Shown here one piece after another: positions 40,627 through 57,810 of a DNA stretch of 64,000 nt. The stretch spans positions 1,488,001 through 1,552,000 of the forward strand of contig CP088295.1 of the NCBI GenBank assembly GCA_024666565.1, given 5' to 3'. Origin of the DNA: Svornostia abyssi. GTDB taxonomy: Bacteria > Actinomycetota > Thermoleophilia > Solirubrobacterales > Solirubrobacteraceae. The notes beneath the pieces were generated by a model, which saw only the letters and a program-made list of their open reading frames with translations, made no database searches and had not been told where the DNA came from. Every line of letters begins with the position of its first letter. Within the stretch, counting starts at the first letter, position 1. The position numbers were made by a program, and so were the translations under genes.

Positions 40627-41472
40627 ATGTCCGATCCCGCGGCACTCGGTCAGTTCCTCCAGGCGCGGCGCGCCGAGCGCACTCCCGCGGCCGCCGGTCT
40701 GCCCGCGTGGGGGCGGCGCCGCACGCCGGGCCTGCGCCGCGAGGAGCTCGCCGCGCTGGCGGGCGTCTCGATCGACTACCTCACGCGCCTCGAGCAGGGG
40801 CGCCATGCGCAGCCCTCGCCCGATGTCCTCTCGGCGCTGGCCTCCGCCCTGGGGCTGACCGACGCCGCACGCGCCCATCTCTTCCTCCTCGCGGGCCGGC
40901 CGGACCCGGGCCCGGTCGTGCTCGCGCGCGACGACGTGCCGGGGCCGGTGCGCCGACTGGTCGAGCGCGCCGACCCGTTCCCGGCCTGGGTCCTCAACCG
41001 CCGCCGCGACCTGCTGGTGTGGAACGAGGGCGCGACGGCGCTGCTCGGCGATCTCGCGGCGATGGACGCAGAGCAGCGCAATCAGCTGCGCCTGGTGTTC
41101 ACGACACCCGCGGCCAGGGCGCTGTGGGCCGACTGGCCGCTCGTGGCCCAGGACACCGTCGCGCAGCTGCGCGCCGTGACCGGCCCGGCGGGAGCGGACC
41201 CCGAGGTCGCGGCGCTCGTCGCCGATCTCTCCGCCGCGTCGCCGGAGTTCGCCGAGCTGTGGGCGCGTCACGACGTGGCGCCGGCGTGCAGCCCGCTGCG
41301 CGCGGCCCACCACCCGGAGGCGGGTGAGCTGCGCTTCGATCTCGGGCTCTTCGATGCGGCCGGCGGTGACCTTCAGGTCGTCGTCGCCGAGCCGCACGAC
41401 GACGCGACGCAGTCGCGGTGGACGGCGTTCATGCGCGGGCGCCTCGAGGCGGGCCGGCTGCACGCGCTGTAG
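40627..41472 (+). CDS. XRE-family regulator with MmyB-like ligand-binding domain
   Basis: A 281-residue regulator. The helix-turn-helix spans about 25-75 (LRREELAALAGVSIDYLTRLEQGR). The C-terminal MmyB-like domain has PAWVLNRRRDLLVWNEGATALLG, FTTPAARALWADW and LLRAAHHPEAGEL-like elements. These regulators sense small hydrophobic molecules and often control a neighbouring SDR oxidoreductase, as here on the divergent strand. ATG 40627 lies 9 bases after a -10-like CATGCT. Confidence 0.88.
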   Translation: MSDPAALGQFLQARRAERTPAAAGLPAWGRRRTPGLRREELAALAGVSIDYLTRLEQGRHAQPSPDVLSALASALGLTDAARAHLFLLAGRPDPGPVVLARDDVPGPVRRLVERADPFPAWVLNRRRDLLVWNEGATALLGDLAAMDAEQRNQLRLVFTTPAARALWADWPLVAQDTVAQLRAVTGPAGADPEVAALVADLSAASPEFAELWARHDVAPACSPLRAAHHPEAGELRFDLGLFDAAGGDLQVVVAEPHDDATQSRWTAFMRGRLEAGRLHAL

Positions 41473-41473
41473 G

Positions 41474-41521
41474 TCGGCCCCCGGCGCCGCGAGCGTCACG
41501 GCGGCGTTCCCCCGGGGCCGA
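41474..41521. terminator. terminator-like hairpin after XRE regulator
   Basis: TCGGCCCC (41474-41481) pairs with 41514-41521, and inside it CGCCGC (41485-41490) pairs with 41501-41506. The compound G+C-rich stem begins one base after the regulator's stop and would isolate the pst-like operon from upstream transcription. Confidence 0.5.
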
Positions 41522-41546
41522 GGCACCGGGATCGGGGATGCGTGTG

Positions 41547-41552
41547 TATATT
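41547..41552 (+). promoter_or_regulatory. -10 element TATATT of the pst-like operon
   Basis: TATATT is an unusually good -10 in this DNA. It implies a leader of about 60 bases before ATG 41621 with AGGAG at 41606-41610. No PHO box (GTTCACC repeats) is visible upstream. Confidence 0.5.
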
Positions 41553-41555
41553 CCC

Positions 41556-41593
41556 GACAATCTTGGTCGACAAACAGACCTTTGCAGATTGTC
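41556..41593. promoter_or_regulatory. GACAATCT/AGATTGTC inverted repeat in pst-operon leader
   Basis: A perfect 8-base inverted repeat (41556-41563 and 41586-41593) with a 22-base loop lies right after the -10 element. It could be an operator at the transcription start or a leader hairpin close to the Shine-Dalgarno. Confidence 0.5.
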
Positions 41594-41620
41594 CAGAAGA
41601 ACCACAGGAGACACGCACGC

Positions 41621-42670
41621 ATGACCGACACCAACCGTGGAGGCCGCATCGCCGCGGCGGCAATCGCCGCCGCTCTGGTGTTCCCGGCGGCCGCGGACGC
41701 CGCGCCGTCGGTGTTCAGCACCACGGCCAAGGTCGTGCCGGCGGGGCAGACCCCGGACGGCACGTGGACGCAGGGCAACCTCAGCGATGAGGAGCGGTAC
41801 CTCCTCAACGTCGGAGGCTTCCCCCTGGCGCTGAGCGAGAGCAACGGCAAGACCACGGGCGGCGTCGTCGGCTACGACGTGCTGCCCCCGCTGTACCGCA
41901 ACCTGTTCGGGAAGCCGCGCTGGCTCACCGAGGGGACCACCGGCGCGCAGCCGCACGCCACCTGCGACGTTGCGGCGCTGAACGCCGACGCCGCCATCCT
42001 CGGCTGGCAGGGCGACGAGCCGGCATACGGATACGTCCTGTTCCAGGCGACCGCCGCCGGGCTCGGCGACGATCCCGCCAAGTGGCTGCCGAAGGTCAAG
42101 GAGCTCACGGGTCTCTCGCTGGCCAGCACCACGAACCTCACCACCGCGTGCACCTCGATCGGCGGGACGTTCGTTCCGGCCGACACGGTCGTTGCGAAGT
42201 CGTCCGATCTCGCGAGCGGGCTCACGGCGCCGCTGGAGACGAAGGTCGCCGACCTCACGAAGGCGAAGGACACCGCCGACACCAAGGTCGCCGACCTCAC
42301 GAAGGCCAAGGCCGCGGCCGACGCCGAGGTCAAGCGCCTGACGCTCGAGGCGACCCCGTTCAAGGTCGCGGTGCCGAGCTCCGCCACCCTCCAGCGTGGT
42401 CTCGACGTCAACGTCACGGGCCCGCCGAACCGGCCGGTGTTCATCCGGGCGCTCGTCACGGAGAAGCAGCGCCGCGAGCTGAAGATCCCGGTCAAGACCC
42501 TGGGAACCGGCACCGGATTCACCGACGCCAAGGGCAAGGCCAAGGTCATCGTCCAGCCGCGGAAGGACTCCGCGCCTGTGCTGCTCCGCTGGCAGGTCGC
42601 CATTCCGGTGCAGATCGCCGCCGTGTCCGGCGACCGCCAGAACACGCTGGTCGTGTCCCTCGGCGCCTGA
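41621..42670 (+). CDS. secreted coiled-coil protein heading the pst-like operon
   Basis: A 349-residue exported protein of unknown function. The signal peptide is about residues 1-27 (AAAAIAAALVFPAAADAA). The middle has DVLPPLYRNLFGKPRWL and cysteine-containing segments. A coiled coil at about 205-245 is built from two near-identical 14-residue units (KVADLTKAKDTADT and KVADLTKAKAAADA). The C-terminal 100 residues look like a beta-sandwich. The AGGAG Shine-Dalgarno is 10 bases upstream. Its gene is 65 bases before the PstS-like gene. It might organise the binding protein or touch the cell wall; no family is recognised. Confidence 0.8.
   Translation: MTDTNRGGRIAAAAIAAALVFPAAADAAPSVFSTTAKVVPAGQTPDGTWTQGNLSDEERYLLNVGGFPLALSESNGKTTGGVVGYDVLPPLYRNLFGKPRWLTEGTTGAQPHATCDVAALNADAAILGWQGDEPAYGYVLFQATAAGLGDDPAKWLPKVKELTGLSLASTTNLTTACTSIGGTFVPADTVVAKSSDLASGLTAPLETKVADLTKAKDTADTKVADLTKAKAAADAEVKRLTLEATPFKVAVPSSATLQRGLDVNVTGPPNRPVFIRALVTEKQRRELKIPVKTLGTGTGFTDAKGKAKVIVQPRKDSAPVLLRWQVAIPVQIAAVSGDRQNTLVVSLGA
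42242..42306 (+). repeat. 23-bp direct repeat coding coiled-coil units
   Basis: The same 23 bases occur at 42242-42264 and 42284-42306, 42 bases apart (14 codons, two heptads). The near-identity at DNA level suggests recent duplication of a coiled-coil unit. Confidence 0.7.
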
Positions 42671-42700
42671 GCGCCTTCCGGGCCTTCGCGGCTCATTTTC

Positions 42701-42729
42701 TATATAAATTCGATCAACAAAAACGAGGA
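42701..42729 (+). promoter_or_regulatory. A/T-rich promoter and ribosome binding site of pstS-like gene
   Basis: TATATAAAT at 42701-42709 is one of the most A/T-rich stretches in the window and offers a near-consensus -10. GAGGA at 42725-42729 is the Shine-Dalgarno for ATG 42736. A separate strong promoter for the binding protein is common in pst operons. Confidence 0.55.
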
Positions 42730-42735
42730 ACTGGA

Positions 42736-43584
42736 ATGAAGACGCACACCAGAGGGCTCGCAGCCGTCGCGGCCCTGACGGCGGTCGCTGCCGTCCCGGC
42801 CACTGCGAACGCCGCAACCATCGCCGGGTCCGGGTCGAGCGCCAGCACGCCCTATGTCGAGGCGCTGTTCAAGGCCTACAAGAAGGTCGACAAGAAGAAC
42901 ACGTTCACGTACTCCGCGAACAACGGCAACGCCGGTGCGAAGGACGTGCAGGCGGGCCGCAGCGCGTTTGCGATCCAGACGCGTCCGCCGCTGCCCTCCG
43001 ACTCGGGCCTCGTGTACTCGAAGCTGTTCCTCGACGCGCTCACCGTCTCGGTGAACCCGGCGAACAAGCTCAACGACCTCCAGGTCAGCCAGGTCAAGGA
43101 CATCTTCACCGGCAAGGTCACCGAGTGGTCGGCGTTCTCCGGCTCGGGCTTCTCCCAGCCGATCTCGGCCTTCGGCCGGGTGTCCACCGCGGGGCTGTAC
43201 ACGTTCTTCACGAGCGCGGTCCTCGACGGTGAGGCGCACGGCACGAACGTGACGCCGCTCGACAAGGACGGCGAGGTCGCGGTGGCGCTCTCGAAGAACC
43301 CGCAGGGCATCGGCTACGTCGGTCTGGCGAACTCCCGCGCGGGCAGCGGCGTCAAGCGCCTGGCGCTCAACGGCGTGCCGCCCACGCCCGCGACGATCAA
43401 GAGCCTGAAGTACCCGCTGTCGCGGTACGCGTGGCTCGTGACGTCGTCCACGAAGCCGAACCAGGCCGCCCTGAAGTTCGGTGACTGGATCCGCTCCAGC
43501 TACGAGGCCGGCGTCATCATCGACAAGCTCGGCGCGGTGCCCGCGTTCAACGCGACGAAGCCCAAGAAGAAGAAGAAGAAGTAG
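42736..43584 (+). CDS. pstS: PstS-like phosphate-type substrate-binding protein
   Basis: A 282-residue periplasmic-type binding protein, shorter than typical PstS (about 320-370). The signal peptide ends near ANAA (about residue 27). Domain 1 begins TIAGSGSSASTPYVEALF, matching the first anion-binding loop. AFAIQTRPPLP and VKDIFTGKVTEWSAF are recognisable PstS blocks. The third loop, usually R-x-SGSGT, reads FGRVSTAG, so the ligand may be bound differently or may not be phosphate. The C-terminus ends KPKKKKKK. No lipobox is seen. It is followed after 12 bases by the permease genes. Confidence 0.85.
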   Translation: MKTHTRGLAAVAALTAVAAVPATANAATIAGSGSSASTPYVEALFKAYKKVDKKNTFTYSANNGNAGAKDVQAGRSAFAIQTRPPLPSDSGLVYSKLFLDALTVSVNPANKLNDLQVSQVKDIFTGKVTEWSAFSGSGFSQPISAFGRVSTAGLYTFFTSAVLDGEAHGTNVTPLDKDGEVAVALSKNPQGIGYVGLANSRAGSGVKRLALNGVPPTPATIKSLKYPLSRYAWLVTSSTKPNQAALKFGDWIRSSYEAGVIIDKLGAVPAFNATKPKKKKKK

Positions 43585-43596
43585 GTCACGCCGCCG

Positions 43597-44598
43597 ATGG
43601 CCACCCAGGTCCATGACGACCCTGGCGCCCGCGCGCTGCGGGCCGACCGGCGCGCCGAGCTCATGCTCGGCGCGCTGGTCCTCGGCGTGCTCGGATTCGT
43701 GCTGCTGCTCATCGTCTTCGTGTTCCGCGAAGCGTGGCCGTCCTTCGCCAACAACGGCCTGCTCTGGTTCGCGAACGGCGACGACTTCGACCGGGAGATC
43801 GAGGAGATCTTCATGTCGGCCAACCTCCTTCAGGAGCCGGTCTACGACTTCCGCGCGTGGCCGATCCTGTGGAGCACGATCGTCATCACGACCCTGTCGG
43901 TTGTCATCAGCTTCATCGCCGCGCTCTTCGTCTCGGTGTTCGTCGTGGAGTTCGCGCCCGAGTGGATGCGGCGCATCCTCGAGCCGGTCATCCGGCTGCT
44001 CGCCAGCGTGCCCTCCGTGATCCTCGGCCTGCTCGGCGTGCTCATCCTCGTCCCCTTCATCGGTGAGCAGCTCATCACCGACGACCAGCGCCGCGAGGTC
44101 TCCTACGTCGTCTCGCTGAGCGGCTACAGCCTCCTCGCCGGCGTCCTGATCCTCAGCCTCATGATCGCGCCGCTCATGATCGCCGTGTTCGTCGACGGCC
44201 TGCGCTCCGTGCCGCGTGGCTGGCTGGAGGGCGCGCTGGGCCTCGGCGTGAACCGGTGGCGGACGTTCTGGAAGATCGGCGTGCGGACTGCCCGCCCCGC
44301 GCTCGTCGCCGGCACGGTCCTCGCGACCGCACGCGCGATCGGGGAGTCGATCATGCTCGCGATGGTCTGCGGCGGCGTCGGCTTCGCGCCGAACCCGGCT
44401 GACGGGCTCATCTTCTTCCTGGAGCCCGCGAAGCCGATTCCCGCCGCGATCCTCCAGGCGTCCGAGGAGCTCACGTCGCCGCCGATGCGGGACACGATCT
44501 TCGCGATGGCGTCGATCCTGCTGTTCTCGTCGCTCGTCCTCTCCCTCGCCGGCTGGGCCGTCAAGCAGCCGATGAAGAAGTACGGGGTGCGCAGTTGA
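43597..44598 (+). CDS. pstC: phosphate ABC transporter permease PstC
   Basis: A 333-residue permease with about six helices. The first helix is LVLGVLGFVLLLIVFVFREAW. The cytoplasmic coupling loop lies in GWLEGALGLGVNRWRTFWKIGVR, followed by ARAIGESIMLAMVCGG. The FVVEFAPEWMRRILEPVIRLLASVPSVILG-type core is characteristic of PstC. It pairs with PstA to form the membrane pore. Its stop overlaps the TTG start of pstA. Confidence 0.9.
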   Translation: MATQVHDDPGARALRADRRAELMLGALVLGVLGFVLLLIVFVFREAWPSFANNGLLWFANGDDFDREIEEIFMSANLLQEPVYDFRAWPILWSTIVITTLSVVISFIAALFVSVFVVEFAPEWMRRILEPVIRLLASVPSVILGLLGVLILVPFIGEQLITDDQRREVSYVVSLSGYSLLAGVLILSLMIAPLMIAVFVDGLRSVPRGWLEGALGLGVNRWRTFWKIGVRTARPALVAGTVLATARAIGESIMLAMVCGGVGFAPNPADGLIFFLEPAKPIPAAILQASEELTSPPMRDTIFAMASILLFSSLVLSLAGWAVKQPMKKYGVRS

Positions 44599-45554
44599 GC
44601 GTCGCAACGCCGCCCGCCCCCAAGGAACGCCGTTCGGCGCGCGACTCGAGCGCGTCGTGGCGCTGGACCGACCGGCTCGGCCTCGCGTTCGCGTGGGTGC
44701 TCGGCGTGATGTTCCTCCTCATCACCGTGGGCATCGTCATCTACCTCATGGTCCAGGGGATCCGGTTCGTCAAGCCGGAGTACTTCGTCACGTCGCCGTC
44801 CGCCGGGTTCTCGGAGAGCGAGACCGGTGGCTTCCTCGACCCCCTCGTCGGGACGATCGTCGTCGCGTCGCTCGCGATGGCGATCGCGTTCCCCGTGGGG
44901 CTCGGAGTCGGTGTGTGGCTGAGCGAGTACGGCCGGCCCACCTGGCTCGCGCGGATCACCGAGTCGACCGTCGAGATGCTCGCCGGCACGCCGTCGATCG
45001 TCTTCGCGCTCTTCGGCGTGCTGCTCTTCCAGCACCCGGCGCTGGGGCTCTTCAGCCAGTCCACGGACGGCGTCGTGTACGGCCGGTCGTTCTTTGCCGC
45101 GGCCGCCATGCTCGCGCTCATCGCGCTGCCGCTCGTCGTGGCCAACGTGCGTGAGGGCCTGCAGGCGATTCCCGGCCACGTGCGAGAGGCGTCGTACGCC
45201 GTCGGCAAGACGAAGATCGCCACCACGCGCCGCGTGCTGCTGCCCGCCGCCCGTCCGTCGGTCGTGACCGGCGCGATGCTCGGTGTCGGCCGGGTCATCG
45301 GGGACACCGCGGTGATCATCCTGCTCCTCGGCGCGACCCTGAAGATCGTGCCCGCCGAGGGGCCGGTCGGCGAGCTGCGCGGCACCGGCAGCACGCTGAC
45401 GAGCTTCGTGTTTCAGAACGCCCCCACGGGCGAGGCCAACCAGCCGGAGAAGGCCTTCGCGGCGGCATTCGTGCTGCTCGCGATGGTGCTGATCCTGAAC
45501 TTCGCCATGGACGTCGTCGTCCGTCGAGGAAGGAGACTCACATGGGGTTCCTGA
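44595..45554 (+). CDS. pstA: phosphate ABC transporter permease PstA
   Basis: A 319-residue permease. The core includes GVWLSEYGRPTWLARI, TVEMLAGTPSIVFALFG, the coupling segment REASYAVGKTKIATTRRVLLP and GRVIGDTAVIILLLGATL. The start is TTG 44595, which overlaps the pstC stop (TTGA). The end overlaps pstB by 13 bases. It is the second half of the transport channel. Confidence 0.9.
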   Translation: MSVATPPAPKERRSARDSSASWRWTDRLGLAFAWVLGVMFLLITVGIVIYLMVQGIRFVKPEYFVTSPSAGFSESETGGFLDPLVGTIVVASLAMAIAFPVGLGVGVWLSEYGRPTWLARITESTVEMLAGTPSIVFALFGVLLFQHPALGLFSQSTDGVVYGRSFFAAAAMLALIALPLVVANVREGLQAIPGHVREASYAVGKTKIATTRRVLLPAARPSVVTGAMLGVGRVIGDTAVIILLLGATLKIVPAEGPVGELRGTGSTLTSFVFQNAPTGEANQPEKAFAAAFVLLAMVLILNFAMDVVVRRGRRLTWGS

Positions 45555-46435
45555 GCCCGCCGCCGGTCCGCAAGCTGCCGCTCGCCGGTGAGGACACGGC
45601 CCGGGTCGTCGAGCCAAACGGAAACGGCGCGTCGAGCTTCGTCTCGTCGGGTCGTCGCGCGGTCGCGTCGACCTCGCTGGCGGTCGACCGGATGCAGGTC
45701 GAGGAGCTCTCGATCGCGTACGGATCGAAGCTCGCCGTCGACTCGGTGTCGCTGCCCATCAGGCAGGGCGAGGTGCTCGCGCTCATCGGCCCTTCGGGCT
45801 GCGGGAAGACGACGCTCCTGCGGTCGCTGAACCGCCTGACTGAGCTCACGAAGACGGCGTCGCTGAAGGGGCGCATCACGCTTGACGGCGACGACACCGC
45901 GACGTTCGAGCCCACGTCGCTGCGCCGCCGCGTCACGATGGTCTTCCAGCAGCCAAACCCGTTCCCGATGAGCGTGTTCGACAACGTGGCGTTCGTGCTG
46001 CGCGAGCAGGCGTCGCGCCGGCCCCGCAAGCGCGAGCTGAAGGGCGCCGTGGAGGACGCCCTGCGCCGCGCGGGCCTGTGGGACGAGGTCAAGCACGACC
46101 TCGCGCACCCGGCGCTGCGGCTGTCCGGCGGCCAGCAGCAGCGGCTGTGCATCGCCCGGGCGCTCGCCGCGAATCCCGAGGTGCTGCTGCTCGACGAGCC
46201 GTGCTCGGCGCTCGACCCGCAGTCCACCCAGGTCATCGAGGACCTCATCGTGCAGCTGCGCGAGGAGGTCGCCGTGGTGATCGTGACGCACAACCTCCAG
46301 CAGGCCTACCGGATCGCCGACTACGTCGCCTTCATGTACCTCGGCGAGCTCGTCGAGTACGGGCCGGCGGAGCAGGTGTTCGGGGCGCCCAAGCAGGAGC
46401 GGACCAGGGAGTACGTCAGCGGTGCGTTCGGCTAG
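45542..46435 (+). CDS. pstB: phosphate ABC transporter ATP-binding protein PstB
   Basis: A 297-residue ATPase. Walker A is GPSGCGKTT, the Q loop is VFQQPNPFPMSVFDNV, the signature is LSGGQQQRL, Walker B is LLLDEPCSALDP and the switch histidine is in VIVTHNLQQA. The PNPFPMSV motif is diagnostic of PstB. A 50-residue N-terminal extension before the ABC core is unusual. No phoU gene follows. Instead the operon runs on into a lipoprotein and zinc-ribbon genes. Confidence 0.93.
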   Translation: MGFLSPPPVRKLPLAGEDTARVVEPNGNGASSFVSSGRRAVASTSLAVDRMQVEELSIAYGSKLAVDSVSLPIRQGEVLALIGPSGCGKTTLLRSLNRLTELTKTASLKGRITLDGDDTATFEPTSLRRRVTMVFQQPNPFPMSVFDNVAFVLREQASRRPRKRELKGAVEDALRRAGLWDEVKHDLAHPALRLSGGQQQRLCIARALAANPEVLLLDEPCSALDPQSTQVIEDLIVQLREEVAVVIVTHNLQQAYRIADYVAFMYLGELVEYGPAEQVFGAPKQERTREYVSGAFG

Positions 46436-47154
46436 GCCCTTCATGGCGGTGCTCGCCCTCACCATCCCCGTGCTCGCCGGGCTGCGATTCGACGCAGGAC
46501 AAGAACGAGCGCGCAAAGCTCGCGGCACAGCGCGAGATCGCCAGCCGCGAGCCGTTGCGCGTGGGCGCGGTCAATCCGGACATCGCGATCGACGACGTCG
46601 CGCTGGTCCGCGACGCGCGGTCGACGGCGGTGGTCGTCGAGCTGCGCAGCCGGGCGGCACGACCGCTCACCGATGTCCCGATCTCTGTGGGCGTCCGGCG
46701 CGGCGGGCGCATGGTGTACCTCAACGCGGGCCGCGAACTGGGGTGGTTTCGGACGCACGTCCCGGCGATCCCCGCCCGAGGCGCCGCCACCTGGGTGTTC
46801 CGCGTCCCGCCCGGGCGCCGCACCCGCGCCGGCGACGTGCCGTTCGCGCGGGTCGGCATCCCGGGCGCGCCGGTCGTCAGCTCGGCGAGTGCGCTGCCCG
46901 AGATCCAGGCGGCGCCCGCCGGCGGCGTCACGCGCGGCCGCGCGCGCGTTGCTGTGGAGAACAGGTCCGACATCCCGCAGTTCGGCCTGCAGGTCTACGC
47001 GTACGCCCGCGAGGGCGGCCGTTACGTGACCGCGGGGGCCACCACCGTCAAACGGCTCAAGCGCGATGAGCGCAGCGTCGTGCAGGTCCCGCTGACCGGC
47101 CGGACGCAGGCTGGGCGCCTGCAGATCGTGGCCGTCCCGACGATCTTTCAATGA
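46422..47154 (+). CDS. lipoprotein of the pst-like operon, frameshifted in signal peptide
   Basis: About 243 residues after correction. The start (GTG 46422, or ATG 46443) encodes a signal peptide MAVLALTIPVLAG, and the frame then breaks at the GGG at 46479-46481. Removing one G gives the perfect lipobox LAGC followed by DSTQDKNERAKLAAQREI. The mature part contains two beta-rich repeats that look like FxLYD/DUF-type sandwich domains (VAVVELRSRAARPLTDVPI-like and RVAVENRSDIPQFGLQVY). It overlaps pstB by 14 bases. It probably sits outside the membrane next to the transporter; the function is unknown. Confidence 0.75.
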
Positions 47155-47166
47155 GGAGCGAGTGAC

Positions 47167-47820
47167 ATGAGCTTCACCGACGAGCGCATCGCAGCACCCG
47201 CGCCGATCGCACGCGCGCCGTGGGAGCAGTGCGACAGCTGCCAGGCGCCGGTCGACGACACCCAGCGCTACTGCGTCGCGTGCGGGGCCCACCAGCGGCG
47301 CAGCAACGACCCGGCCGCGCGGTTCTTCGCTGACGCGCGCCGCCCGAAGACCCCGGCGGTGCCCGCGCCGGAGGCGGGAAGCCGGCGGACGGTCCCGACC
47401 ATCGTCGCCGCGGGGCTCATCGCGCTGCTGCCCGTCGCGGCGGGCATCGGCATCCTCGTGGGCCGCGGGGCGTCGAGCAACGACGACGTGCTCGTCGAGG
47501 CGCTGAAGGCGCAGAAGGTCGAAGTCGTGCAGGTCGGCGGCGGCGCGGCGGGCGCGACGGGGGACGCCGCGGCCACGGGAGATGAGGAGGCGTCGGCCGA
47601 CGCGTCCGCGTCGGACAAGGACGAGACCTCGACGAGCAGCAAGCCGGCGAAGATCCTTGCCACGGGCCCGGCCGGCAGCGCCCGTCAGCTCGCGGGGACG
47701 AAACCGACGAAGAAGGACGTCGAGGAGAGCAAGAAGGCCGTCGAGCGCATCAACAGCACGAAGGGCGACGAGTACGTGGATTCGCAGAGGGACCTGCCCG
47801 ACCAGATCGTCGTTCCATGA
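47167..47820 (+). CDS. zinc-ribbon single-pass membrane protein
   Basis: A 217-residue protein. The zinc ribbon CDSC...CVAC is at about 22-39 (EQCDSCQAPVDDTQRYCVAC), with a transmembrane helix at about 76-99 (TIVAAGLIALLPVAAGIGIL). A Ser/Asp/Glu/Ala-rich region and a basic C-terminal helix (TKKDVEESKKAVERI) follow. It has a strong GAGGAG Shine-Dalgarno 8 bases from ATG 47167. Its stop overlaps the next ATG (ATGA). The layout matches the zinc-ribbon membrane protein at 6612. It may couple the transporter to a cytoplasmic partner. Confidence 0.78.
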   Translation: MSFTDERIAAPAPIARAPWEQCDSCQAPVDDTQRYCVACGAHQRRSNDPAARFFADARRPKTPAVPAPEAGSRRTVPTIVAAGLIALLPVAAGIGILVGRGASSNDDVLVEALKAQKVEVVQVGGGAAGATGDAAATGDEEASADASASDKDETSTSSKPAKILATGPAGSARQLAGTKPTKKDVEESKKAVERINSTKGDEYVDSQRDLPDQIVVP

Positions 47821-48266
47821 GGTCGCGCGACAAGGCCCCCGAGGGCATGGTCCCGGCGGAGCAGATCGCCGCGCAGGCGCGTAAGGAGGCTGCGTCCGCG
47901 CCGCCTCCCGCGCCGCAAGACCAGGATCTTGTCGCCCGCCGCGACAAGCTCATCGAGCAGTTCACGGTGCAGCAGGCCGAGCTCGGGGGCGTCTTCTACG
48001 AGATGGCGATCCGCGACCATATCCGTCTGGACGTCCTGACGCAGAAGGCCGCGGCGCTGCAGCGGGTCGATCACGAACTCGCGGAGGTCGAGCGCGCCCT
48101 GCGCGGCGACGAGGGCCCAGTTGCGGGGAACTGCCCGTCGTGCGGGGCACGCCACGCGGCCGAGGCGCGGTTCTGCTCGCGCTGCGGGTACGTCCTGCAA
48201 CTCGCGGAGACGCCCCCGCCCACCGCGCCCGTGGTGAACGGCAACGGGAACGGCGCCGCGCCGTGA
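47817..48266 (+). CDS. coiled-coil protein with C-terminal zinc ribbon
   Basis: A 149-residue soluble protein. A helical, coiled-coil-prone region spans about 35-95 (DLVARRDKLIEQFTVQQAEL to VDHELAEVERAL). A zinc ribbon follows with CPSC...CSRC (about 105-122). An Asn-Gly repeat (NGNGNG) is near the end. ATG 47817 and the next GTG both overlap neighbouring stops, so three genes are translationally coupled. Together with the preceding membrane zinc-ribbon protein it suggests a zinc-stabilised cytoplasmic complex. No known function. Confidence 0.78.
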   Translation: MRSRDKAPEGMVPAEQIAAQARKEAASAPPPAPQDQDLVARRDKLIEQFTVQQAELGGVFYEMAIRDHIRLDVLTQKAAALQRVDHELAEVERALRGDEGPVAGNCPSCGARHAAEARFCSRCGYVLQLAETPPPTAPVVNGNGNGAAP

Positions 48267-49614
48267 CGCGTCTGCAACTCCTCGGCGTCGCCATGCTGTC
48301 CGTGCTCTCCACGGCCGGCGTGCTCGTCGGCGCCGTCGGGGCCAGCCCGGATCTCGGCGCGCTCGGCGACCTCACCCGACAGGTGCGGGTCGCGACCGGC
48401 GTGAGCACCGAGGAGCCGGCGGCGGAGGCGGCGACGGACGAAGAGAGCGCGGATGCCGGCGCGGAGGAGGAGGTCGTGACGGAGGAGGCCGCCGCCGAAC
48501 CCGCCGCGACCGTCGACACGGCGACGGCGGACGAGGTCGACATCTCCGACGTCGACGTGGGCGAGTTTGATGACACCGCCGGGGACGAGTCGGGCGACGG
48601 CCCGGTGACCGCGGCTGACCAGGTCCCCAAGCCGTCACGCATCAAGCACATCTTCGTCATCACCCTCGCCGGGCACGGCGTCGACGCCGCGTTCGGATCG
48701 GGCTCCGCTGCGCCGTACCTCGCCGGCGAGCTCCGGCCCAAGGGCACGCTGCTCACCGGGTTCTCCTCGTTGGGCCGCGCCGACCTGCCGGATCGCCTGG
48801 CGCTGATCAGCGGCCAGCCACCGAACGCCGCGACGAAGGGCAACTGCGCGACGTACCAGGAGATCCCCGCGTCGACGAAGCCCAACAGCGCGCGGGGGAG
48901 GTCACGGTCGACGGCTGCGTGTTCCCGAACACGGTCACGACGCTGGCCGATCAGGTCACGAGCGCCGGGCAGACGTGGAAGGCGTACGCGCAGGACATGG
49001 AGAAGGGCCCGAAGGGCGCGATCCTCTGCCGCCGCCCGCCGTCGAACGGGCTGGACGACACACAGCAGCCGCGGCCGGGCGACACGTACGCCGCGCGCAA
49101 CAACCCCTTCGTCTACTTCCACTCGCTGCTGGACCTCAGCGACTGCGACGCGAACGCCGGGCCGCTGACGAAGCTCGAGGGCGACCTCGCGTCGGCGAAG
49201 AAGACGCCGAACGTCAGCTACATCGCCCCGGGGCTCTGCAGCGACGGCTCGGTGACCGCGTGCGCCGACGGCACGCCCGCCGGCCTCGCTGCGGCCGACG
49301 CGTTCCTGAAGACGTGGGTGCCGAAGATCTTCGCGTCACCCGCGTACAAGGAGGACGGCCTGCTCGTGATCACGTTCGCGGGCGGGGCCGGCGCGCCGGC
49401 GGGCGCGGACGGGCCGGTGCGCAACGGCACGCTGCTGATCTCGCGATATGCGAAGCCGGGGGGCGTCGACGAGACCGAGCTCGATCCGTACGCCCTGTTG
49501 CGCACCTTCGAGGATCTCCTCGGGTACAAGGCACTCGCCCGGGCGAAGACGGCGCCGTCGCTGACCCCGACGGTACTGGCGACAGCGCGGGTCATCGAGC
49601 CGGGCGACGACTGA
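48263..49614 (+). CDS. phosphoesterase/alkaline-phosphatase-superfamily-like protein, frameshifted
   Basis: About 450 residues after correction. The N-terminal helix (LQLLGVAMLSVLSTAGVLVG) acts as a signal or anchor, followed by a Glu/Asp/Ala-rich linker. The domain from about 120 starts IKHIFVITLAGHGVDAAFG, the position of the metal-site aspartate in phosphoesterase-family (PLC/AcpA-like) proteins, where VIxxMENxS is usual. The frame breaks in the G run 48894-48898; one extra G gives ARGEVTVDGCVFPNTV. The rest includes YFHSLLDLSDCDANAGPL and LLVITFAGGAG. Key acidic metal ligands seem changed, so activity is uncertain. It fits a phosphate-release partner for the transporter. Confidence 0.75.
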
Positions 49615-50549: not shown

Positions 50550-51260
50550 ATGCGTGTGGCTGCCTGGACCGTCGTGCTCGCGTTGGCGGGCACCCCCGTA
50601 GCCGCGCACGCAGCTGGCGGGCCGCCGCTCCGCGGCGAGGTCATCGGCCGGTCGGTGCAGGACCGCCCGATCCGCGTCGTGCGGGTCGGTGACCCCGACG
50701 CGCCGCGCAAGGTGCTCGTCGTCGGCTGCATCCACGGCACGGAGCCCGCGGGGCTGGCGATCACGCGGGCGTTGCGCCGGGTTGTCCCGCCGGACGGCGT
50801 GCAGCTTCTGGTCCTGGACCGCATCAACCCCGACGGCTGCGCGGCGGGCACCCGCGGCAACGCACGCGGCGTGGACCTCAACCGCAACTTCCCGCGCGCG
50901 TGGCGCCCGCTGGGCGGGGTGTTCGATTCCGGCCCGCGCGCTCTCTCCGAGCCCGAGTCCCGCGCCGCCCGAGCGCTCATCCGGCGCGAGCGGCCGAGCG
51001 TGTCGATCTGGTACCACCAGGCGCTGAACTGGGTCGACCTGCAGCCCGGGTCCAACCTCCGGCTCATGCGGATGTACGCGCGGGTGTCGGGGATGCGCGC
51101 CGCGGTCACGCCGCCGCTGCCCGGCACCGTCGTGCGCTGGACGGCCCACACCTACCCGGGGCGCACGGCGTTCGTCGTCGAGCTGCCCGCGGGGCGGCTG
51201 AGCAGCGCCGCGGTCTTCCGTCACCGGCGCGCGGTGCTGGCACTCGCGAGCGAGCTCTAA
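50550..51260 (+). CDS. secreted M14-family zinc carboxypeptidase
   Basis: A 236-residue exported peptidase. The signal peptide ends near AHAA (about residue 22). The zinc ligands are His62 and Glu65 (GCIHGTEP) and His156 (WYHQALN). GVDLNRNFP is the substrate-binding motif, and Glu211 in FVVELPAG is the catalytic glutamate. The small size resembles MpaA-type murein peptide amidases, so it may trim cell-wall peptides. ATG 50550 is chosen for the signal peptide. The stop overlaps the convergent surface-protein gene by 3 bases. Confidence 0.88.
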   Translation: MRVAAWTVVLALAGTPVAAHAAGGPPLRGEVIGRSVQDRPIRVVRVGDPDAPRKVLVVGCIHGTEPAGLAITRALRRVVPPDGVQLLVLDRINPDGCAAGTRGNARGVDLNRNFPRAWRPLGGVFDSGPRALSEPESRAARALIRRERPSVSIWYHQALNWVDLQPGSNLRLMRMYARVSGMRAAVTPPLPGTVVRWTAHTYPGRTAFVVELPAGRLSSAAVFRHRRAVLALASEL

Positions 51261-54200
51261 GCCAGCCAGCGTCGTGCCGCGGCGGCCTGCGCCACGCGGC
51301 GGCGGTGCCCCACGACGCCGCCGGCCAGCCCGGCGGTGAGCAGGAGCCCGGTGCCGCCGAGGATCAGGCCGGGCTCGAGCCCGGTGTCCTGCGGTGCGTA
51401 GATCGCGGCGTGGTGCATGGCGCCCTCCCGCGCCAGCTCCTGCTGGCGCTGGGCCTGCCGGGCGGGCGACAGCTGCGCCTGCGGTGCCTGGGCGGGCTGG
51501 GACACCATGCCGTTCGGCGGCGCAGGCGGGACCGTCGGCGCGGGCTTCGGGTTGGGGGCGACGGGCGGGGACGCGCCGCCCGTCGCGGCGACGGACGCGA
51601 TCGCGGCGGGGAACACCACCAGCGGTGGCGCGGGCGCGGGCTGTGGTGGGGCGGGTGCGGGTGGGGCCGGAGTCGGGACCGGCTGCGGCGCCGGTGGTGC
51701 CGGCGGAGCGACGGGGACCGGCTGCTTCAGCGGGGCAGGCGACGGCTGAGGTGACGGCGCGGCCGCGGGTGGAGCGGGCGCTGGACTTCGCGTGATCTCT
51801 CCGCCGATGAAGGCGCACGGCGCACCGCCGGCGACGGGCCGCCCGGACATGGACTCGCGGACGGTCAGCGGGTACGAGGCCGTCCGGCCCGAGGTCGTCA
51901 CCGTGATCGTGGTCCGCCCCGGGCGCAGCGGGCAGAGCACCGGGGACGCCGCGTCCACGACCGGGTTGCGTCGCTCGTCCACGACGATCTCCGGCGCCTC
52001 GCTGCCGCGCCTGCGCGGGCGCGCCCGCACGAACACGGCGATGGCGGGGTCCGCAACCTCGTACGTCGCATCAGTGGGCAGGATGCCGCGGCACACGCTC
52101 TCGGCGCCGAACAGGCCGCACGCCAGGCCCCCGGCGTACACGTACGGCCACGTCCGGGATTCCACGGGCGGGTTCGTGGGCTGGGCGGGGTCCGTCCAGA
52201 GGAATCCGGTCCCGGGACCGCCGTCGCCGACGATCTGCAGGAAGTCTGCGCGGCCACGCTCCGCGGAGATCGAGCCGGGCAGCAGGTGGGAGAACACCGG
52301 CACCGTGGTTGCGCTGGAGACTCCGTCAACGACCTGGATGCCCAACATCGAGGGTCCGTCCCACCCGGGCTCGCGCTCAGGATCGTCAGGTCCCTCGACG
52401 TTGTTCAGGAACGTGGCGAACGGCGTCTCGTGGCTGAGCGCCGCGGTGTGGTGCAGGTTCATCGGCAGGTTGCCGACGGTCGTCGAGGTCGTCACGGTCC
52501 GGTTGCCGAACAAGGCGGCGTTCGTGTCGTCCACTCCGTCCGTCGACACGTAGGTGCGAACCCCGTGGGCGGCGAGCAGCTCGAGCTGCGCGGTCCTGTC
52601 GGTTGCGGCCCGCGGTTGGTCGTCCAGCCGCGCGGCCCCGACAGCGACGACGGGGATCCCGTTCTGCGCGGCGTCGGCGAGCACCGCCTGCAACCACTGC
52701 GCCTGCGGGCCGGCCGGCCCGCCGCGCAGGCTTCCGCCCGCGTTGTCGATCACGACGACGCGCGCCGCCGCGGGCGCCCCGGCGTGGGGAACGTCGAATG
52801 CGTAGGCGATGACGTCGGATGCGGGGTCGTCGACCGGGGCGGGCGGGCTCAGGACGGGCTGGACCGCGCCCGGACCGCCCGGCTGCCGGTGGAAGAACGG
52901 GGTGAGGGCCGCCCGGAACGCGCGACGTCCGTCGGCGGTCTGGGCGTCGCCGGTGCCGATGGCCGCGGCGACGGTCACCGATGGCTGGGACCTCAGCAGC
53001 TCGGCGTACCGGCGGGCGCCGGCGTCCGTCAGGGGCGTGCCACCGGTGCTCGCCCGCCCGCCGCCGATCACGACGACCGTCGGTCCGTCGGCCGGGCTTG
53101 CGAGGTCGGCCGCGGTTCGCAGCGCGTCGGTCAGTGCGACGTCCGCGGCGACGCCCTGGTCGCCGCGCCCCGCGCACTCGTCGAGGCACGCGGGGTGTCC
53201 GCCGACGAACATCCTCAGCGGTCCGCCCGCCGGCGGTGGCCTGCGGACGTCCGGCGGCGTCACGTCGAACGGGGCGCCGCCCAGCGGCAGTTCGAAGGAC
53301 ATCGGCGCGGAGTTCGTCCGGGTGGCGGTGGCCTGCACGAAGTTGCCGATCCCGCCCGCTGCCCATCCGACCCCGCGCTCGTCCACCGAGAGGGTGCTGA
53401 CCGGCGGCGACCATGCGGCGAGGTCGCGGCCGGCCGACCGTGTCAGGGGAACGCCGAGGCGGTCGACCCACCCGTCGCGGCCCAGGATGGCGAGCCTCCC
53501 ATCCCCCGGGAGCGCGGCGCCCTCGACCTGGAACGACCCGCCGGACCCGCCGGGGTCGTCGAAGTCGATGTTCACGTCCGCTCCGTACACCGGCCGGCCG
53601 ACGTCCGCGACCGACGCGGCGATCGCGAGCGGCACGTTGGTCGCCGGCAGGCCCTGGGCTGGCGCGAGTTCCACGCCGCCGCCGTCCTCGCGCCAGAGCG
53701 CGACCTCGATCACGTCGCCCTCGGCGGGTGAGGCCAGGCGGCGCCACGGGCCGCCCGGGCCCTCGCGCAGGTAGCGCGCGTCCACGACCGCGGTGCCGTC
53801 AGGGAGCCCGGCGACGGCCGACGCGGCGACCGGTCGGCCGTCTTCCTGCATCAGCGTGGCGAGGGCGGTGTCGAGTTCCAGCGGCCCGGTCGGCGAGGCC
53901 ACGAGCAGGCCGCGGTCCGAGGCCACGAGCGCTTGCTCGCCGGCGTAGGCGACGCGCCGCATGTGGGCGCCCGCCAGCGGGCCGGTCAGGGTCACCCGGG
54001 TCCACGACCCGTCGGTGCGCCGGGCCGCCACGCCGGCCCGGCCCACCGCCCACGCGTCATCGTCGCGCGCGGCGATGTCCATCACGTCGAGCCCCGGGCC
54101 GGCCGCGTCAGGGGGAACGGGCTTGATAACCGGGACGTCCGGCTCGTCGCCGCTGACCACGCTGACGATGTCCGGCAGGGACGTCTCGGCGAGCAGCCCG

Positions 54201-55945
54201 CCGCGTCCGCCGATGATCATGCTGGTCGGTCCATCCCAGGCCAGCGCGGTGAGCGCGCCGGCGCCTGCGGTGTCGTTGCCGTCCTCCGGCGTCGAGTCCA
54301 GGCGCACCGCCGCCCACGGCTCGTTGCCGCGCTGGCGCATCAGCATCCCCGAGGTGCTCAGGAGGACCGATCCCGCCTCACCGGCGGGGGTGCCGGGCGG
54401 GGAGAGGGCGACGTCGACCGTCGCGTCGAGGCCAGTTGGGGAGGTCACGTCGAAGACGCCGAAGGCGGTCGTGCGCGTCGGCATCGTCCGTCCAACCGTG
54501 CGGGCGCCTCCGATCACGGCGAATCCGCCGGGCGCAAACGCCGCGGCCTGGGTGCCGGCGTTCCCGTCGTCGCCCACGCCGGAGCGCAGGGCGAACGTCT
54601 CGCCGTCAAGCTCGAGGTAGCCGCCGGAGGCCGACGCCTCCCGCGCGGTGGTGTCTCCCGGTGCTTCGGGGATGACGGGGCTGGTGATCGAGCGCCGGCC
54701 GAAGGGACGTGCGGCGGCGTCGTCGTCGGCGAATGCCTGGGACCGGTACCCGCGCGTGGTGGCGAACCGGAACCGCAGATCGCGGGTGCAGCCGCTCCCG
54801 TCGGGCAGCGTGGGCGAGCACCACGTGCCGGTCGCCTCCGCGGGTTCGGCTGCTGTCGCACCAGGCCGGAGGTGCACGGTCGTGCTGACGGCGACGCCGT
54901 CGTCGCGCGTGACGATGAGGTCGAGCCACCAGTGCCCGTCGGCGACGGTGAGCGGCTGGCCGGGCGCGGCGACGGGCCGGATCGCGGTCGTGCCCGCGGG
55001 CAGCGCGCCGGTGAGCAGCGGGGAACCCGTGAGCGTGACCGGCCGGAACGCGGCCTCGTCCTTGTCGCGGCGCGCGAGGGTCACGCGGTCGGCGGTGGGT
55101 CCGGTGGCGTCGCCGTCGAACAGCGCGACGGCGTCGCCCGCGGGCGTGGCGTCGAGGGCCAGCGGGGTGCGCGGGCCCAGCGCGGCGCCCGTCTCGTCCT
55201 CCCACGGCTCGGCGGTCCAGGTCGAGCCGTCCCAGCGCAGGACGCCCGCCGCGCCTGCGGGCGCGAGGAGCACGCCGGTGCGGCCCTCCGCGGCGGGGAC
55301 GTCGAAGACCGCCATCGGCGTGACGGCCCCGGTCGGCGCGGCGAACGGGTCGGCGGCGGGTGGGGTCGGCAGCTCGCGGAAGCGACCGTCCTCCCCGCGG
55401 GCGAGCACGGCGCCGCGCGGTGCACCGCCACCGCCGTCACGGATGCGGACGAGCAGTGCGGCGGCGCCGGCCGGGGTCGCCGCGCCGGCGTGCAGCGCGT
55501 CCCCGCCCGAGGTGGCGTCGGTGCTCGTGCTCGCCGTGCCGTTGTCCAGGCGCCACGCCCCGTCGGGGATCGCGTCGCCGTTGACGTCGAGCGGGGCCGC
55601 GGCGCGCCGCCACGCGGTGGCGCGGTCGTCCCCGGTGATCGTGCCCTGCAGCAGCACCGTCTGCGCAGGCGCGCCGGGGGCGGGCGGGACGACATCCCGG
55701 CCGACGATCGTCGAGCTCGGTCGCGTCCGGCCGGTGGCCCACACCGTGCGCGTCGTCCCCTCCGCGGACAATCCGAACGGCACGACGTGGCGCGCCGCAC
55801 TGACGTGCTCGGCGACCACGACCGGCGTTCCGCTCACCTGTCGCACGCTCGCCTGGTCGCCGGCCGCGAGCGCCGCGAGCGGCACCGCCACCGGCAGCAG
55901 CAGGAGCGCGAGCCCGGCCCGCCGGCGACGGGGCCGCGCGGTCAC
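51257..55945 (-). CDS. giant secreted, membrane-anchored surface protein
   Basis: A 1562-residue protein. A signal peptide (RRRRAGLALLLLPVAVPLAA) starts at GTG 55945, whose GTGA overlaps the ftsH stop. The first ~900 residues hold repeated beta-propeller-like strands (VWATGRTRPSS, AVGRAGVAARRTDGSW, GWAAGGIGNFVQ). A later region at about 950-1200 resembles a metallophosphoesterase fold with its metal ligands changed (VVVIDNAGGSLRGGPAGPQ, PVVAVGAARLDD). A Big2-like segment (TTITVTTSGRTASYPLTV) precedes a long proline-rich stalk. It ends with a transmembrane helix and an Arg-rich tail. It probably projects from the cell surface. The function is unknown. Confidence 0.8.
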   Translation of the reverse strand: MTARPRRRRAGLALLLLPVAVPLAALAAGDQASVRQVSGTPVVVAEHVSAARHVVPFGLSAEGTTRTVWATGRTRPSSTIVGRDVVPPAPGAPAQTVLLQGTITGDDRATAWRRAAAPLDVNGDAIPDGAWRLDNGTASTSTDATSGGDALHAGAATPAGAAALLVRIRDGGGGAPRGAVLARGEDGRFRELPTPPAADPFAAPTGAVTPMAVFDVPAAEGRTGVLLAPAGAAGVLRWDGSTWTAEPWEDETGAALGPRTPLALDATPAGDAVALFDGDATGPTADRVTLARRDKDEAAFRPVTLTGSPLLTGALPAGTTAIRPVAAPGQPLTVADGHWWLDLIVTRDDGVAVSTTVHLRPGATAAEPAEATGTWCSPTLPDGSGCTRDLRFRFATTRGYRSQAFADDDAAARPFGRRSITSPVIPEAPGDTTAREASASGGYLELDGETFALRSGVGDDGNAGTQAAAFAPGGFAVIGGARTVGRTMPTRTTAFGVFDVTSPTGLDATVDVALSPPGTPAGEAGSVLLSTSGMLMRQRGNEPWAAVRLDSTPEDGNDTAGAGALTALAWDGPTSMIIGGRGGLLAETSLPDIVSVVSGDEPDVPVIKPVPPDAAGPGLDVMDIAARDDDAWAVGRAGVAARRTDGSWTRVTLTGPLAGAHMRRVAYAGEQALVASDRGLLVASPTGPLELDTALATLMQEDGRPVAASAVAGLPDGTAVVDARYLREGPGGPWRRLASPAEGDVIEVALWREDGGGVELAPAQGLPATNVPLAIAASVADVGRPVYGADVNIDFDDPGGSGGSFQVEGAALPGDGRLAILGRDGWVDRLGVPLTRSAGRDLAAWSPPVSTLSVDERGVGWAAGGIGNFVQATATRTNSAPMSFELPLGGAPFDVTPPDVRRPPPAGGPLRMFVGGHPACLDECAGRGDQGVAADVALTDALRTAADLASPADGPTVVVIGGGRASTGGTPLTDAGARRYAELLRSQPSVTVAAAIGTGDAQTADGRRAFRAALTPFFHRQPGGPGAVQPVLSPPAPVDDPASDVIAYAFDVPHAGAPAAARVVVIDNAGGSLRGGPAGPQAQWLQAVLADAAQNGIPVVAVGAARLDDQPRAATDRTAQLELLAAHGVRTYVSTDGVDDTNAALFGNRTVTTSTTVGNLPMNLHHTAALSHETPFATFLNNVEGPDDPEREPGWDGPSMLGIQVVDGVSSATTVPVFSHLLPGSISAERGRADFLQIVGDGGPGTGFLWTDPAQPTNPPVESRTWPYVYAGGLACGLFGAESVCRGILPTDATYEVADPAIAVFVRARPRRRGSEAPEIVVDERRNPVVDAASPVLCPLRPGRTTITVTTSGRTASYPLTVRESMSGRPVAGGAPCAFIGGEITRSPAPAPPAAAPSPQPSPAPLKQPVPVAPPAPPAPQPVPTPAPPAPAPPQPAPAPPLVVFPAAIASVAATGGASPPVAPNPKPAPTVPPAPPNGMVSQPAQAPQAQLSPARQAQRQQELAREGAMHHAAIYAPQDTGLEPGLILGGTGLLLTAGLAGGVVGHRRRVAQAAAARRWLA

Positions 55946-57810
55946 GTCTCGGCGAGGATCGGGATCGGGATGGGGGCCAGCAGGTCGGCGAGCTCGTCCT
56001 CGCTGAGCGTCTCGCGTTGGGCGAGCCGGCTGGCGATCTCCTGCACGACGGGCCAGTGCTCGCGCAGCGCGTGGGTCGCGATCTCCTCGGCGCGTTCGAC
56101 GATGCGGCGGGTCTGCGCGTCGATGGTGTCGAGCGTCGTCTGCCCGACACCGCCGAGTTCCTGCAGCGACGCGCCGAGGAACACCTCGGTGCTGCGCTCG
56201 CCGATCGTGATCGGGCCCAGGTCGGACATGCCGTACGAGGTGACCATCGAGCGCGCCAGCGCGGTGGCGGCGTGCAGGTCGTCGTGGACGGCGGTGGACA
56301 GCTCGCCGAACGCCAATCGTTCCCCGGCGGTGCCGGCCATCGTGGTGGCGAGCTGGCGTGCGAGGTCCGATTCGCGCAGCACGAGCCGTTCGCGGTCGGC
56401 GTGCACGATCGCGGCCGCGCCGAGCCGCCGCCCGCGCGCGACGATCGAGAGCCGCCGCGTGCCGTCCCCGCCGAGCGCGCGGGCGACGACGGCATGCGAC
56501 GCCTCGTGCGTGGCGATCGAGCGCAACTCGTTGGGCGTCAGGCGGTGGGCGGTCGCCCGTGGGCCGTTGAGCACCCGTTCGATCGCCTCCTCGAGGTCCG
56601 CTTCGCTCACGGCCTCGCGCCGCCCGCGGGCGGCGAGCAACGACGCCTCGTTCACCACGTTCTCCAGCTCCGCGCCCGTGTAGCCCGGGCAGAGCGCCGC
56701 GATGCTCGCGGGCTCGACGTCGTCGGCCACCGGCCGTCCCTGCAGGTACAGCTTCAGGATCTGCGTGCGCCCGTGGATGTCCGGCGCGTCGACGGTGACC
56801 TGGCGGTCGAAGCGCCCGGGCCGCAGCAGCGCGGGGTCGAGGATGTCCGGCCGGTTCGTCGCGGCCAGGACGATGATCCCGGTGCCGGCGTCGAACCCGT
56901 CGATCTCCACGAGCAGCTGGTTGAGCGTCTGCTCGCGCTCGTCGTTGCCCTGGCCGACACCCGCGCCGCGCTTGCGCCCGACGGCGTCGAGCTCGTCGAT
57001 GAAGACGATCGCGGGCGCCGCGTCGCGCGCCTGGCTGAACAGGTCGCGGATGCGGGCGGCGCCGACGCCGACGAGCGACTCGACGAACTCGGCACCCGAC
57101 ACGGAGAAGAAGCTCGCCCCGGCCTCGCCGGCAGTGGCACGCGCAAGGAGCGTCTTGCCGGTGCCCGGCGGGCCGACGAGCAGCGCGCCGCGCGGCGCTC
57201 GCGCCCCGAGCACGGCGTACCGGCCCGGTTCGCGCAGCAGGTCGCACAGCTCCTGCAGTTCGGCGACCGCGGTGGGCGCCCCCGCGACGTCGGCGAAGGT
57301 GGTCGGAGACGTGGGCGGTGCGACGTTGCGCTTGCGCCAGCGCGAGAAGCGGCCGACGTCGTCAGGGCCCCGTTGCGTGAGGCGTGCCAGGAGCGTGAAC
57401 AGCAGCACGAGAATGAGCACCGGGAGCAGCACCTGCACGACCAGCCGTCGCGCCTGCTTGCCGCTCTGCGGGTCGTAGCGCAGCGGGATCCCCGCGCGTG
57501 TGAAGGTGTTCTGCAGCGACGCGTTGCTGGACCCGCTCGCCGGGAGCCCCGCCCACAGCTCCTCGCCCTCCGTCGTGGTGACGAGGATGATGTGGTCGTA
57601 GTCGAGGATCGTGCCTTCGGTGAGCCGCTGTTCCTTGGCGAGCGTCTGGACGTCGGTGATCGACGTCTCCTTGCCCACCGGCTCGGGCGTCGTGGAGTTC
57701 AGCAGCAGGACGAACGCGAGCGCGAGAACGACGACGATGCCCGCCAGCGCCGCGCTGATGGGATCGACCGTGAAGGTGCGCAGGGCGCGCGGGCTGGCGG
57801 AGAGCTTCAT
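55942..57810 (-). CDS. ftsH: FtsH-like membrane AAA+ zinc protease
   Basis: A 622-residue protease. Two N-terminal helices (about 17-37 and 122-143) flank an extracytoplasmic domain. The AAA+ domain has Walker A GPPGTGKT (213-220), Walker [11 protein letters not shown] and the second-region-of-homology [19 protein letters not shown]. The zinc site is HEASH (435-439), with the third ligand in [16 protein letters not shown] (about Asp511). All catalytic elements are present although HEAGH became HEASH. It is shorter at the C-terminus than housekeeping FtsH and is coupled by GTGA overlap to the giant surface protein. It may be a specialised paralogue. Confidence 0.9.

Follow-up and report, generated by a model that had tools for sequence, protein, structure and literature searches.

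Svornostia abyssi carries, in the 64,000-nucleotide stretch of DNA analysed here (the window), an operon in which a Pst-type ATP-binding cassette (ABC) importer is joined to a lineage-specific envelope module, and across Solirubrobacterales, an order of soil actinobacteria, the same module is found again next to pst genes that belong to three PstS classes. Nine genes, recognised as open frames and by family matches, occupy positions 41621–49614; the operon is genuine and its core is conserved, and the arrangement is beyond chance because it recurs in many genomes. The unit shares with PstSCAB-PhoU a binding protein, two permeases and an ATPase of the Pst families in their usual order; it differs in having no phoU and, instead, a lipoprotein, two zinc-ribbon proteins (ZR1 and ZR2) and a phosphoesterase-like protein (PE). 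Our tentative interpretation is that the module likely acts as a sensor for a phosphorus ligand outside the cell and controls the importer in PhoU's place; a membrane sensing complex, already suggested by the sequence-only reading of this DNA, is the explanation that we prefer. We found no description of the gene set in open-licence papers; the genomic case for a conserved Pst-importer variant is solid, and its function is what we infer.

Linkage of the module to pst genes

Conservation was analysed with ZR2 alone as bait. A scan of genome contigs yielded 120 ZR2 relatives, the best 80 of which were kept as loci, and since these loci were chosen by ZR2, the shares among them are not population figures. 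Conservation of the accessory genes with pst in relatives had been set beforehand as the test of the sequence-only reading, and it was borne out: a pst gene lies within 6 kb of ZR2 in 69 of the 80 loci, spanning the three PstS classes, and ZR1 lies within 1.5 kb in 75/80. Among the 11 loci without pst, the contig stops no more than 2 kb from ZR2 in eight; L121 does have pst, its ZR2 match having been masked by the overlap filter. The module stands in line after pstB in units of PstS types A and B (defined below), often with the lipoprotein gene between, and is convergent with pstB in units with a canonical PstS.

Within the order, a ZR2 match at an E-value of 1e-3 or better was detected in 79/121 genomes and in 61/83 of the better assemblies, counts that include weak zinc-ribbon matches; across the phylum, a match at 1e-8 was detected in 15/296 genomes, all of the same class. 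Most of the ZR2 loci bear titles of Solirubrobacterales, Patulibacter, Conexibacter, Paraconexibacter, Solirubrobacter or unclassified actinobacteria, and a few titles are odd. Four loci (L093, L104, L108 and L112) are titled Bifidobacterium breve or Chlamydiae; their gene content fits Solirubrobacterales loci, and these titles look misassigned. A wider ZR2-like family exists beyond the order: three weak relatives from the same class (L176–L178) show no pst, PE or phoU match in 16–17 kb, so that linkage of module and pst throughout the class was not seen in the three outside-order relatives examined; six further genomes of the class also gave weak ZR2 matches.

A pseudoenzyme and zinc ribbons in units without phoU

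PE (48263–49614, plus strand) consists of a hydrophobic N-terminal segment and a predicted pseudo-phosphoesterase ectodomain, its frame being broken near 48890; the C-terminal piece matches PF04185 at 38.8 bits (cut-off 23). A family test returned PF04185 for 35/40 members of its set A2. A search for solved relatives by sequence, with one copy as query, gave no convincing match, so folds were compared instead; a PE relative modelled at a predicted local distance difference test (pLDDT) score of 92.6 has an alkaline-phosphatase-superfamily fold. PE thus shares fold and family profile with the PF04185 phosphoesterases (the AcpA acid phosphatase/phospholipase C group), and departs from them in its lost catalytic motifs and in the hydrophobic segment that precedes the ectodomain in 63/64 frames. 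In 31 of the 64 copies, the open frame also encodes a zinc ribbon ahead of this membrane segment.

The four catalytic motifs of the family (EN, H-S, HD and DE) were scored in 64 PE rows, 58 of them distinct. None is kept in 61 rows and one in the other three; gaps were scored as not intact (10 at EN, 7 at H-S, 7 at HD and 2 at DE), as was an EN pair placed one residue later in L118, L133, L098 and L102. Among the 49 rows aligned at all eight positions, 46 keep no motif and three keep one. In the window, AG, RD, SV and AG stand where EN, HS, HD and DE are expected. Close paralogs from the family search, which were drawn from PF04185 matches and are taken as active by motif only, have all four motifs in 5/5 cases, three wrong-strand frames at the same loci having been left out of this group; of seven FAR rows, two have all four, and five were aligned over the later half only, with HD and DE shown there and EN and H-S recognised by eye. 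Judged by its motifs, PE descends from this family but is not an active enzyme, and it qualifies as a conserved pseudoenzyme.

This bears on the idea, raised by the sequence-only reading, that PE hydrolyses a substrate in a release complex, which is unlikely given the loss of the family's catalytic motifs; phosphate release by PE was set aside on the same count. A related possibility is organophosphate scavenging, in which PE would cut phosphate esters and the importer would take up the phosphate. Membership of PF04185 and the gene order would suit it, whereas no PE row keeps more than one of the four motifs, and we regard it as highly improbable.

The two zinc-ribbon genes precede PE on the same strand. 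ZR1 (47167–47820) has a zinc ribbon followed by a hydrophobic stretch and a brief tail, with a Zn_Ribbon_1 match of 19.7 bits that lies below the cut-off of 25; ZR2 (47817–48266) is a soluble protein with a predicted-helical part and a C-terminal zinc ribbon (PF13240, 30.2 bits, cut-off 25). The zinc-ribbon pattern and hydrophobic stretch are present in 113/113 ZR1-type matches, a set that includes the zinc ribbons of PE proteins, and CxxC pairs are present in 99/100 ZR2 matches. Among 16 families listed for ZR2 at E-values up to 1, PhoU (PF01895) does not appear, with which a PhoU-like role is still compatible.

The absence of phoU reported earlier holds within the window's unit; the PhoU matches of this genome are two repeats in one frame at 2692.7–2693.3 kb, beside another pst unit. 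We compared 80 pstB units for which 3 kb or more of downstream sequence was available; 74 of them are distinct by sequence. ZR2 without phoU was found in 67/74. Five units (L041, L055, L085, L105 and L110) do carry phoU; in these, ZR2 is located on the far upstream side of pstS, a layout that assigns it to an adjacent unit or to a contig that has been cut. The remaining two, L112 and L121 (the latter with its masked ZR2), have neither. ZR2 and phoU are mutually exclusive per unit, not per genome.

A membrane protein with an ectodomain of the same superfamily is found in the lipopolysaccharide control system of enterobacteria, YejM (PbgA, LapC)–LapB–FtsH; YejM is non-catalytic. ZR1 and ZR2 differ from its inner partner, which has TPR together with a rubredoxin-like domain, in that no TPR family was found among their matches. 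The parallel is one of outline only, that of an alkaline-phosphatase-superfamily ectodomain on a membrane protein (structure row 6vat_D) with an inner partner, LapB, described as having a rubredoxin-like domain (passages of PMC9356133 and PMC7157816).

Importer proteins, lipoprotein and flanking genes

The four importer proteins, all encoded on the plus strand, exceed Pfam cut-offs, and their best NCBIfam matches are all Pst: a PstS-type binding protein (42736–43584; PF12849, 95.6 bits, cut-off 27), PstC-type (43597–44598; PF00528, 72.8 bits) and PstA-type (44595–45554; PF00528, 71.9 bits) permeases and a PstB-type ATPase (45542–46435; PF00005, 117.3 bits). Unlike the proteins of standard PstSCAB-PhoU units, three of the four fall below NCBIfam cut-offs: PstS scores 130.2 against 206.6, PstC 182.3 bits against 196.45 (TIGR02138) and PstB 335.8 bits against 343.2 (TIGR00972), just missing it. 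Only PstA reaches its threshold, with 200.1 bits against 193.45 (TIGR00974). All four ATPase motifs (GPSGCGKTT, LSGGQ, LLLDEP and THN) are present in the window's PstB; among related PstB proteins, 53/69 show all four patterns, 15 miss only the strict Walker B pattern and one misses the signature pattern.

PstS was aligned to solved PstS, using what we take to be its phosphate-contact residues and loops. The PstS proteins beside ZR2 fall into three classes, split by their phosphate-holding loops: canonical (GSG, ASDAP, DGSGDTYAF), type A (SGSTS, GGSD, SSRD, ASGT) and type B (GNAG, QTRPPLPSD-like, STAG- or TNGG-like). The window's protein belongs to type B, which also sets it apart from the PstS of PstSCAB-PhoU; the usual phosphate-contact loops are absent and are replaced by type B loops. 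As GNAG, PLPSD, [QN][TAS]R and GR are common to 17/17 distinct type B sequences, the loops are replaced yet recurrent, and the pocket has thus been altered but maintained. From these loops, phosphate is not established as the substrate of type B PstS, and some anion may still bind. A fourth loop pattern occurs in the PhoU units L036 and L055.

In one type B locus (L062, 40–3570), a second ABC importer lies upstream of pstS, with matches to the sulfate importer families CysP-type, CysT, CysW and CysA; loci like it (L048, L056–L063, L065 and L070), which are one family, have weak permease and ATPase matches at that place. This sulfate-type importer may hint at the type B ligand.

Between pstB and ZR1 lies the lipoprotein gene (46422–47154, plus strand), which is read in two frames, broken near 46480, and encodes two predicted immunoglobulin (Ig)-like domains. 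Its body (46489–47151) was modelled at pLDDT 93.5, and fold comparison gave generic beta-sandwich matches only, among the families listed. The lipoprotein profile matches 41 loci, with a lipobox-type cysteine in 41/41 relatives, and finds nothing in one set of type B units, L062 among them. A scaffold would also account for the two Ig-like domains and the non-catalytic ectodomain, and PstB retains its ATPase motifs while type A and canonical PstS retain their phosphate loops. It is accordingly possible, but not probable, that the unit is simply one more phosphate-type importer, with accessory proteins that have a structural role, stabilising or localising it in a thick envelope, and that neither sense nor gate. 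Zinc ribbons, which are expected to be intracellular, and the lack of phoU in these units point, indirectly, to more than an outer scaffold.

In 7/100 loci, from six genomes, the module has a lytic transglycosylase gene close by: L036 (4174–6405), L044, L055, L093, L125, L132 and L134, of which L055 and L134 are one place; it is directly 3' of ZR2 in L036, L044 and L093. The transglycosylase carries M23-like matches in L036 and L044, and ZR1 has weak SPOR matches, both below the Pfam cut-off, in L036 and L054. These genes raise the idea of a wall-linked complex, in which the importer or its partners would position or license peptidoglycan remodelling, in a manner loosely like that of FtsEX. 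The likeness lies in an ABC-type membrane machine with wall-acting genes adjoining in some module loci; here, however, there are import-type permeases and a binding protein, PstC and PstA have PF00528 matches but none to an FtsX family, and the transglycosylase loci are of type A, not the window's class, and are in the minority. Such a complex seems to us decidedly unlikely.

Contrary to the earlier treatment of the lipoprotein and PE genes as intact, each changes frame once. The window's contig is a one-contig genome of 5.06 Mb with a completeness of 93.5%, and the module is present once more in this genome at 2678–2684 kb, with a type A PstS, beside a canonical pstSCAB-phoU (region 2678000–2694000, L036/L141). 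In this second copy, pstC (L036) is also split, so that three core genes across both copies change frame. With two of the window's nine genes affected, and pstC split as well, the window's own copy could be decaying and non-working, whatever the family does. However, the remaining window genes are open and conserved, the pieces of the broken genes are 46–63% identical to L069 against 38–63% for the intact ZR1 and ZR2, and slips in G runs are also expected from sequencing error; we consider decay unlikely. PE is in one frame in L069 and L037, as is the lipoprotein in L069; in L037, the lipoprotein profile covers the first part only. Around the second copy, an FtsH-type protease gene is divergent from its pstS, and the two pst units are separated by a PhoU_div gene.

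The first gene, cc1 (41621–42670, plus strand), is an open frame with a signal-peptide-like start that encodes a secreted coiled-coil protein. The sequence-only reading had included it in the system; of 100 relative loci, a single one, that of Conexibacter sp. CPCC 206217 (L069), yielded a relative, which is 33% identical across 323 columns, and the protein was rejected as a core component and is treated as accessory. That reading's gene list is otherwise sound, naming nine genes while counting eight, and its overlapping junctions stand for pstC/pstA, pstA/pstB, ZR1/ZR2 and ZR2/PE, with a short gap instead between the lipoprotein and ZR1. A terminator-like site lies 3' of cc1 at 42680–42694, such sites being within chance (4 found against 2.8 expected). 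A scan of 41201–42800 for the actinobacterial PhoP repeat, with what we assume to be its motif, gave no match on the plus strand and only two 4-mismatch matches on the minus strand. Further along the window, a 1996-residue open frame runs on the minus strand (51257–57247); its start is possibly too early, and its later part resembles a large surface protein with a proline-rich tail.

Weighing a sensing role for the module

In the sensing complex that we prefer, the PE ectodomain would bind without cleavage, its target being a phosphate ester, a wall polymer or PstS, and the membrane segment of PE would relay a signal to ZR1 and ZR2. ZR2 might adjust the activity of PstB by docking on it, the lipoprotein would keep the external components assembled, and the window's class of PstS may take a ligand other than plain phosphate. 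A sharper form of this proposal, which we offer as speculative, is a PhoU-free phosphorus-sensing importer in which phosphate esters or wall phosphopolymers outside the cell are read by a membrane-anchored but dead phosphoesterase, which sets the Pst ATPase via inner zinc ribbons, with type B PstS moved to a new ligand.

Linkage, the lack of phoU in these units, the lost catalytic motifs and the changed but conserved PstS loops are observed, and the contacts, the ligand and the regulation are inferred. Several observations weigh against a sensing role. PE lies within 6.5 kb of ZR2 in 48/80 loci only, and for 5/64 PE rows the sequence examined shows no pst within 8 kb; the three rows that keep DE (L051, L081 and L082, of which L051 and L082 are one place) are all among these five. 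At L082 and L122, 10 kb of sequence is available on either side of ZR2, and pst is absent from the nearest 6 kb; L082 carries ZR1 and a PE-type gene. In canonical units, ZR1 and ZR2 are convergent with pst and lie outside its transcript. The type-A-like PstS proteins of L040, L052 and L123 are also altered in their loops, which could mean relaxed constraint. Finally, PhoU was found in 110/121 genomes, on which ground ZR2 as a genome-wide PhoU replacement is rejected.

Control of Pst importers is known mainly from PhoU systems. In Solirubrobacterales, many pst genes are instead accompanied by other partners, a conserved pseudoenzyme among them, which makes it testable whether other proteins can fill PhoU's role, and which is possibly a further case of a dead phosphatase-fold protein serving control. 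For the type B class of PstS, the ligand should be measured and not annotated as phosphate. If true, the sensing complex would represent a new way of wiring nutrient uptake.

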